Below are positions 19,656 through 49,307 of a stretch of 64,000 nucleotides of DNA, piece after piece. Under the pieces are notes generated by a model. It was not told the DNA's origin. It worked only from the letters and a program-made list of their open reading frames with translations, and searched no databases. Position 1 is the first letter of the stretch. Each line of letters begins with the position of its first letter. Origin of the DNA: Phyllobacterium sp. YR531 (lineage in GTDB: Bacteria; Pseudomonadota; Alphaproteobacteria; Rhizobiales; Rhizobiaceae); contig NZ_AKIZ01000038.1 of assembly GCF_000282595.1 (NCBI RefSeq), positions 186,001 through 250,000 of the forward strand, read 5' to 3'. A program made the position numbers and the translations under genes.

Positions 19656-19747
19656 TGGCGGAGAGGAAGGGATTCGAACCCTCGAGACCGTTTAACGGGT
19701 CTACTCCCTTAGCAGGGGAGCGCCTTCGACCACTCGGCCACCTCTCC
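19656..19747 (-). tRNA. tRNA-Ser (anticodon GCT)
   Basis: A complete minus-strand serine tRNA. The acceptor stem GGAGAGG pairs with CCTCTCC, the anticodon loop reads CTGCTAA, a long variable arm (GTAGACCCGTTAAACGGTCTC) is present, the T loop is GGTTCGAATCC and CCA is encoded. It reads serine AGC/AGU codons. Confidence 0.97.
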
Positions 19748-48430: not shown

Positions 48431-48496
48431 GTAATTACTCCATCGTCACAAACCGTAGTGGATAATTTTGTTGAACGAAAGTCCAACCACAAGTTG

Positions 48497-48525
48497 CTTG
48501 GAAATACCTGCAATGATGTTATATT
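48497..48525 (+). promoter_or_regulatory. Predicted sigma-70 promoter, copy 1
   Basis: CTTGGA and TATATT with a 17-base spacer, close to the alphaproteobacterial pattern. It reads toward the hairpins and opposite to the small ORF. Confidence 0.6.
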
Positions 48526-48531
48526 CAGAAG

Positions 48532-48624
48532 TGGAGTGAGGGGCGGACTTCCGCCCACCCCTCTTTTTGCTTACTGCTTGAAATGGACCCGGATGCTGAG
48601 CGACCAGCTAGTCCGGGTTCTTTT
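48532..48624 (+). ncRNA. Predicted antisense RNA, copy 1
   Basis: From the predicted start the RNA would contain hairpin 48538-48563 followed by TTTTT, and then hairpin GACCCGGA/TCCGGGTT ending at 48620 with TTTT. It would be about 37 nt if the first hairpin ends it, or about 93 nt if the second does. It covers, in antisense, about the 3' half of the small minus-strand gene at 48571. Confidence 0.5.
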
Positions 48625-48660
48625 CATAGTAAGCGTAACGCTAAACGGCATGTACCGCAT
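48571..48660 (-). CDS. 29-residue basic peptide, copy 1
   Basis: ATG-started frame with a GGAGG site 8 bases upstream (CTGGAGGTAATCT). It encodes MRYMPFSVTLTMKRTRTSWS then LSIRVHFKQ, a basic peptide whose alternating polar/hydrophobic pattern suggests a beta-strand or surface-active peptide. Compared with copy 2 most differences are synonymous or conservative. An antisense RNA is predicted from the opposite strand. Function unknown. Confidence 0.55.
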   Translation of the reverse strand: MRYMPFSVTLTMKRTRTSWSLSIRVHFKQ

Positions 48661-48903
48661 AGATTACCTCCAGTTTTAACGGCAAGGCTGATGCCCAGTC
48701 GGGAAGCCTATCTGCCCGATGGACCGGTCGCTCGATCCACACTGCTTTTGCCATTGGAACCGGAGAACAATTGACTTGAATCAAATATGACAGCAACGAA
48801 TGCAGGGTTGTAAAAACCAGCACTCGGCGGTGTATTGGGTTGCTAATTCTGCTTGGTTTGGGATCGTAAATTGCGAGTTTACTTAATATCCAACCACAAG
48901 TTG

Positions 48904-48932
48904 CTTGGAAATGCCTGCAATGATGTTATATT
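48904..48932 (+). promoter_or_regulatory. Predicted sigma-70 promoter, copy 2
   Basis: The same CTTGGA - 17 - TATATT arrangement, preserved in copy 2. Confidence 0.6.
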
Positions 48933-48938
48933 CAGAAG

Positions 48939-49031
48939 TGGAGTGAGGGGCGGACTTCCGCCCACCCCTCTTTTGTTGACTTATCTGAAATGGACCCGGA
49001 TGCTGAGTGACCAGCTTGTCCGGGTCTTTTT
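48939..49031 (+). ncRNA. Predicted antisense RNA, copy 2
   Basis: Same plan as copy 1: first hairpin 48945-48970 plus TTTT, second hairpin GACCCGGA/TCCGGGTC, a perfect 8-bp stem, plus TTTTT at 49027-49031. The stems are kept although loops have changed. Confidence 0.5.
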
Positions 49032-49067
49032 CATTGTCAACGTGACGCTAAACGGTAGCAACCGCAT
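48981..49067 (-). CDS. 28-residue basic peptide, copy 2
   Basis: Paralogue of the peptide at 48571-48660, encoding MRLLPFSVTLTMKKTRTSWS then LSIRVHFR, also with GGAGG upstream. Codon changes GTT/GTC, CTT/TTG, ACT/ACA (twice) and TCG/TCA leave the protein unchanged, and R/K is conservative. This pattern favours a coding role. Confidence 0.55.
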   Translation of the reverse strand: MRLLPFSVTLTMKKTRTSWSLSIRVHFR

Positions 49068-49307
49068 AGTTCACCTCCAGTTTTAATGGCAAGGCTGATG
49101 CCCAGTCGGGAAGCCTATCTTCCCGATGGATCGGTTCGCTCGATCCACACTGCTTTTGCCATTGGAACCGGAGAACAATTGACTTGAATCAGATGTGACA
49201 GCAACGAATTCAGGGTTGTATAAATCGTTTAGAGAATGGTTTGCGGGTTGTTGTCAGAACGCGCGCAGCGCATCTTGATTGCGTCGCAATTGGCGGTTTA
49301 ATGCGGA

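Follow-up and report, generated by a model that had tools for sequence, protein, structure and literature searches.

Two tandem units in the Phyllobacterium window

Self-comparison of the window, that is the whole stretch of 64,000 nucleotides from Phyllobacterium sp. YR531 analysed here, revealed two direct copies of a unit of about 335 bp, which share 91% identity at a spacing of 407 bp. The first-pass annotation had already described this unit as occurring twice, with a length of 332 bp. On its minus strand each unit carries a structured leader, a GGAGG and an ORF of 28 or 29 codons followed by a post-stop hairpin, and on its plus strand TTGGAA-16-TATATT and a T-run hairpin located within the ORF. 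Because more than 200 diverged copies show this same set of ORF, hairpins and promoter, the paired units at 48482-49224 are confirmed as real and well beyond chance.

48482-48816, minus (peptide-sense) strand: repeat unit, copy 1, from window self-comparison
48889-49224, minus strand: repeat unit, copy 2, from window self-comparison
48794-48810, minus strand: upstream element CAACCCTGCATTCGTTG, copy 1, possible sense promoter or operator element
49202-49218, minus strand: upstream element, copy 2 (1 mismatch), possible sense promoter or operator element

The element CAACCCTGCATTCGTTG has 5-bp inverted arms (GCAAC/GTTGC) and sits upstream of the Phyllobacterium leaders; its matches in the own genome lie mostly close to units or unit remnants, and it is possibly a sense promoter or an operator element. 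The sole Rfam match at gathering level in the window is a tRNA gene at 19659-19747 on the minus strand.

The peptide gene

48571-48660, minus strand: peptide ORF, copy 1, 29 aa, MRYMPFSVTLTMKRTRTSWSLSIRVHFKQ, following GGAGG
48981-49067, minus strand: peptide ORF, copy 2, 28 aa, following GGAGG

The minus-strand frames of 28-29 codons behind GGAGG noted in the first-pass annotation were recovered at 48660-48571 and 49067-48981. Comparison of the copies yielded the family pattern MWxxPxSITLxxKRTRTSWQxxxRVxF. Altogether 220 unique intact units were gathered, and codons were counted in the 202 ungapped ORFs among them: P5 is present in 199/202 and encoded by all four proline codons, L10 is encoded by every CTN codon, and T15, R16, W19, R24 and V25 are near invariant. 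The two window copies differ by 6.5 synonymous versus 5.5 nonsynonymous changes (pS 0.35, pN 0.09), so that the synonymous bias from which selection on the peptide had been suspected holds for this pair and, as purifying selection, family-wide. Their pN/pS is 0.26, that across 6098 pairs overall is 0.51, and the shifted frames gave 0.88 and 1.47. The codon variety at P5 and L10, together with a low pN/pS in the true frame only, indicates that the peptide is under purifying selection in one frame only and that the ORF is real.

These codon data largely refute the reading of the unit as a transposable or palindromic repeat element in which the ORF would be incidental. Its copies are indeed dispersed as well as tandem, intergenic and in some cases decayed; selection in a single frame argues against such an element, as do the syntenic position of chromosomal copies between species and the absence of any visible terminal repeats, transposase or target-site signal, which leaves it very improbable.

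The family peptides have a mean net charge of +4.8 and a mean GRAVY of 0.13, the best 15-residue window averaging 0.40, and hydrophobicity analysis found no transmembrane stretch in them. Hydrophobicity in them has a beta periodicity, with a beta moment of 0.74 versus an alpha moment of 0.23, and versus 0.34 in shuffled peptides. AlphaFold, provided with 61 relatives, returned two strands forming a beta-hairpin with a pLDDT of 82, and the peptide is therefore predicted to be a cationic beta-hairpin without a transmembrane helix. A small ORF (<60 codons) with a Shine-Dalgarno sequence (SD) and protein-level selection, as in type I toxin genes, is present, while the hydrophobic peptide with an alpha-helical transmembrane segment that is found in most type I toxins is absent.

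A predicted antisense RNA whose terminator lies in the peptide codons

48498-48525, plus strand: antisense promoter TTGGAA-16-TATATT, copy 1 (equal to CTTGGA-17-TATATT at 48497-48525), from conservation and promoter scan
48905-48932, plus strand: antisense promoter, copy 2 (CTTGGA-17-TATATT at 48904-48932), from conservation and promoter scan
48533-48625, plus strand: predicted antisense RNA, copy 1, GGAGTG to T-run, ends deduced
48940-49032, plus strand: predicted antisense RNA, copy 2, ends deduced
48585-48625, plus strand: antisense terminator hairpin and T-run within the peptide codons, copy 1, from third-position covariation with 0 sense-strand G.U
48992-49032, plus strand: antisense terminator hairpin and T-run, copy 2, from third-position covariation

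On the strand opposite to the peptide gene, past the 3' end of the mRNA, the units carry a conserved promoter, CTTGGAAA-N-TATATT, followed by GGAGTG. TATATT with 0-1 mismatch was found in 98/130 diverged units versus 18 in shuffles. A promoter scan of the region detected exactly two sites, both of them the CTTGGA-17-TATATT sequences seen at first pass, a number that is not significant alone given 1.1 ± 1.0 sites in shuffles.

The terminator hairpin pairs codons 14-17 with codons 22-25 of the ORF, and three synonymous third-position pairs covary within it. The third positions of codons 16 and 23 pair in 201/202 ORFs (GC 152, CG 42, AT 5, TA 2), with 124 expected. At the synonymous pairs 14.3-25.3 and 15.3-24.3 we counted 38 A.C and 0 G.U on the sense strand; such combinations are wobbles in the antisense RNA only, and therefore it is the antisense-strand structure that is selected. 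At least five T in eight follow the ORF hairpin in 183/202 cases, and arginine 14 is AGA or AGG in 110/116, producing the T-run. These counts indicate that the peptide gene also encodes the terminator of its own antisense RNA. Another type I feature, an overlapping antisense gene that has a promoter and a terminator of its own, is found here by comparison only, and that comparison lends strong support to the earlier suggestion that the locus encodes a small protein together with an antisense regulator.

In the frame-broken copies L098, L243 (ORF copy at 1993), L247, L259 and L084, the break lies in the A-run of codons 13-15, which also supplies the T-tract of the antisense terminator; in L243, the adjacent tandem copy carries one extra A in this run, which is possibly a slippage hot spot or a phase switch. 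Frame-broken copies retain the antisense hairpin (L247, L259 and that on contig C35 of the source genome; small numbers), a pattern that would be expected of an RNA outliving the toxin.

The mRNA leader, the post-stop hairpin and the predicted Shine-Dalgarno lock

48672-48760, minus strand: structured 5' leader (P1-P4), copy 1, covariance model match 48658-48753 with 65 bits, and covariation
49079-49168, minus strand: structured 5' leader, copy 2, covariance model match 49065-49161 with 73 bits
48538-48563, minus strand: hairpin after the stop codon, copy 1, from wobble counts
48945-48970, minus strand: hairpin after the stop codon, copy 2, from wobble counts
48667-48671, minus strand: SD GGAGG, copy 1, pairs with CTCC 48533-48536
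49074-49078, minus strand: SD GGAGG, copy 2, pairs with CTCC 48940-48943
48531-48538, minus strand: conserved anti-SD CACTCCAC at the mRNA 3' end, copy 1, from covariation and fold
48938-48945, minus strand: conserved anti-SD CACTCCAC, copy 2, from covariation

The leader consists of three hairpins (P2, P3 and P4) closed by a helix, P1, that ends immediately before the SD; P1 rests on reading the sequences, the counted structure excluding it. When 47 diverse leaders were aligned by sequence only, covariation scored 0.537, compared with 0.284 in shuffles and at most 0.148 in slid versions, and double-changed cells numbered 108 versus 33. This covariation demonstrates a structured, covarying leader on the putative peptide mRNA.

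Of the two plus-strand hairpins with T-runs listed in the first-pass annotation, only the second, that with the T-run inside the ORF, belongs to the plus RNA, whereas the first, the post-stop hairpin, is selected on the minus-strand mRNA. Read on the sense strand, the latter shows 227 G.U versus 29 A.C, and its loops are commonly GNRA (GAAA-type); the sense-strand G.U excess and these loops therefore point to a hairpin working in the mRNA.

Downstream of the post-stop hairpin lies CACTCC, and the bases flanking its CTCC covary with those flanking the GGAG of the SD. Among 48 representatives, each <72% similar to the others, the first flanking position is Watson-Crick in 39/48 (expected 15.8, z 7.5) and the second in 29/48 (expected 14.3, z 5.1); slid controls for this covariation were null. 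The minimum-energy fold of the window mRNA likewise includes a UGGAG/CUCCA helix (z -7.0). The covariation demonstrates, for the predicted mRNA, that the SD pairs with CTCC at the 3' end. Occlusion of the SD is thus given by covariation and fold, and a distant anti-SD occluding the SD is a described hallmark of type I toxin mRNAs (PMC6733600); because of the role described there, we infer an effect on translation, namely that the full-length peptide mRNA would be translationally shut. In a subgroup (L245, L246, L249, L252 and L254) the SD is TTGGAGTGAAGCG and the usual CACTCC after the 3' hairpin is missing, for which reason the lock in this subgroup may differ from that of the others. A conserved sense sigma-70 promoter was sought upstream of the leader with no -10 enrichment, and no mRNA terminator was found.

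A structured leader, a small ORF and hairpins would also be found in an attenuator, leader peptide or riboswitch controlling a downstream gene. The gene downstream of the units is not constant, however; the units stand in tandem arrays, the SD lock targets the peptide ORF itself, and the leader covariance model, which finds units independently of the ORF, gives matches that are followed by the peptide ORF or its remnants in nearly all cases inspected, so that we consider such a regulator hardly credible.

Distribution and mobile elements

Besides the window pair, four further intact units lie in the source genome: contig C14 has two of them and C19 has a tandem pair. Decayed remnants are found on C35, C39 and C15. 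By DNA search, copies were detected in 19/19 other sampled Phyllobacterium genomes. A peptide profile found the family in 65/298 Rhizobiaceae genomes (29/109 genera), with up to 13 copies each, often in tandem, and in 13/297 Hyphomicrobiales genomes including five further families; the same profile gave 0 matches in 288 other genomes from the class Alphaproteobacteria, all these genome searches being samples of the groups. Neighbouring units of a tandem share one strand in every case and are separated by 272-425 nt. As copies are related, permutation p-values overstate independence, for which reason the tests drew on diverged representatives and slid controls wherever this could be done.

Units were also found on about 43 plasmid records (Sinorhizobium, Agrobacterium, Roseibium, Microvirga, Ancylobacter and Ochrobactrum) and about 19 phage records (16 and 14 in two overlapping searches), where nearly all unit sites are without an annotated gene. 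pLM21S1, a relative of RHEph10 with a replication system of RepC type, belongs to a phage-plasmid group (PMC5537653, PMC4447125); pLM21S1 and RHEph10 each contain a unit, and several unit-bearing phages are members of the phage-plasmid group. An annotated methyltransferase gene neighbours the unit, at a distance of no more than about 2 kb, on three plasmids that come from different genera (L074, L280 and L281). The freshwater phage contig MW462191 (L067) carries two tandem units between the portal and terminase genes, and a third site that falls under an annotated hypothetical protein.

Within Phyllobacterium, the region at 46.7-50.3 kb has the same neighbours, with 1-3 tandem units, in L009, L014, L015, L025, L160, L170, L204, L224 and L243. 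Since the locus is syntenic and retained between Phyllobacterium species, a host function rather than addiction possibly fits as well. Such retention of one to three copies speaks for a reading in which the same SD lock and antisense device control a non-toxic small protein, e.g., a beta-hairpin inhibitor or binder acting in stress, plasmid biology or phage competition; the peptide is without type I toxin features, and a basic beta-hairpin such as the one modelled by AlphaFold could bind nucleic acid or protein. Double repression, plasmid and phage carriage, tandem amplification and frameshifted copies are, however, typical of toxin modules, and we regard a non-toxic product as possible, if rather unlikely.

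A putative type I-like module

We favour, with a probability of about 0.62, the reading of each unit as a self-contained module like a type I toxin-antitoxin system, combining an SD lock with a convergent antisense RNA. The minus-strand mRNA would comprise the structured leader, the ORF of the 28-29-aa cationic beta-hairpin and the 3' hairpin ending in CACTCC, and pairing of its SD with the 3' CTCC would keep the full-length form shut. An antisense RNA of ~93 nt would begin at its own sigma-70-type promoter past the mRNA 3' end, read back across the 3' hairpin and into the ORF, of which it would cover the second half, and stop at the terminator in the KRT/RKT-R codons. Normally, this RNA may neutralise the mRNA via pairing at the 3' end and RNase III cleavage, and the SD could be freed when the mRNA is trimmed at its 3' end or the antisense RNA is lost. 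The released peptide would then be harmful or growth-modulating, and the module might stabilise plasmids and phage-plasmids; chromosomal copies may be tandemly amplified, decaying descendants or serve a stress role. Against this reading stand the lack of a transmembrane helix and the failure to find a conserved sense promoter or an mRNA terminator.

The units would best be filed as a new type I-like family rather than as a proven type I member, because a transmembrane toxin is absent and toxicity is a prediction. At about even odds we place the wider proposition of an unannotated type I-like family on Hyphomicrobiales chromosomes, plasmids and phage-plasmids, whose toxin would be a cationic amphipathic beta-hairpin and whose antitoxin RNA would have its terminator written synonymously into the toxin codons. 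The genes are unnamed in the family libraries searched and in the annotated plasmid and phage records, and the family occurs in about a fifth of the sampled Rhizobiaceae genomes, in relatives of model organisms (Sinorhizobium, Agrobacterium) and in phage-plasmids. From sequence evidence, an SD lock, an antisense RNA with predicted ends and a codon-hidden terminator are predicted. If toxic, the peptide would represent a structurally new toxin class, missed by screens that demand a transmembrane helix, and a new candidate cause of rhizobial plasmid stability.

Comparison with known systems

Searches against Rfam with gathering and relaxed thresholds returned weak chance matches only, e.g., SorY with 19.6 bits versus a gathering score of 111, and Pfam, NCBIfam, PHROGs, PADLOC and PDB sequence searches gave no significant match. 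The best Foldseek hit against the PDB had an E of 3.6. The peptide motif was not found in the literature, nor were type I systems in rhizobia and relatives, the latter being no proof of absence.

The first-pass annotation had named Ldr/Rdl and Ibs/Sib as models. Like the family described here, the E. coli systems Ldr/Rdl, Ibs/Sib and Zor/Orz consist of very small peptide genes arranged in tandem, each paired with a cognate antisense RNA; they differ in their hydrophobic toxins, in lacking any sequence relation and in antisense RNAs that for the most part target the leader or the entire ORF. Sequence membership in Ldr/Rdl or Ibs/Sib was rejected, no Pfam, NCBIfam or Rfam match being found. The type I-like layout itself stood, with the covariation between SD and mRNA 3' end added to it, and these systems are not the nearest models, the peptide having no transmembrane stretch.

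In hok/Sok and aapA/IsoA, too, a far-downstream anti-SD occludes the SD in the full-length toxin mRNA by a long-distance 5'-3' interaction (PMC6733600), and a small ORF of toxin size, an antisense RNA and multiple loci are shared. Their toxins are hydrophobic helices without sequence relation to our peptide, and, unlike in these systems, the antisense RNA here overlaps the mRNA at its 3' end and in the 3' half of the ORF. Membership in the hok/Sok family, with its mok-hok coupling and Sok antisense to the leader, was rejected given an antisense RNA over the 3' half.

SymE/SymR and RalR/RalA are type I systems with toxins that are not membrane peptides (PMC8309996); SymE and RalR are nucleases, however, and a peptide of ~28 aa is too small for an enzyme. 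TxpA/RatA and BsrG/SR4 of Bacillus subtilis have convergent transcripts with a 3' overlap of about 75-120 nt (PMC4147584), are located on mobile elements and have antitoxins that act at a distance on the SD or via RNase III, which we list as shared. Unlike the family described here they encode transmembrane toxins, and neither an antisense terminator nested in peptide codons nor a four-helix leader belongs to them; the convergent 3' overlap is common to both in layout only, with no sequence relation. Nearer models than those first named are TxpA/RatA and BsrG/SR4, which the units resemble in their 3'-overlap layout, and the hok and aapA mRNAs, which they resemble in their 5'-3' lock.
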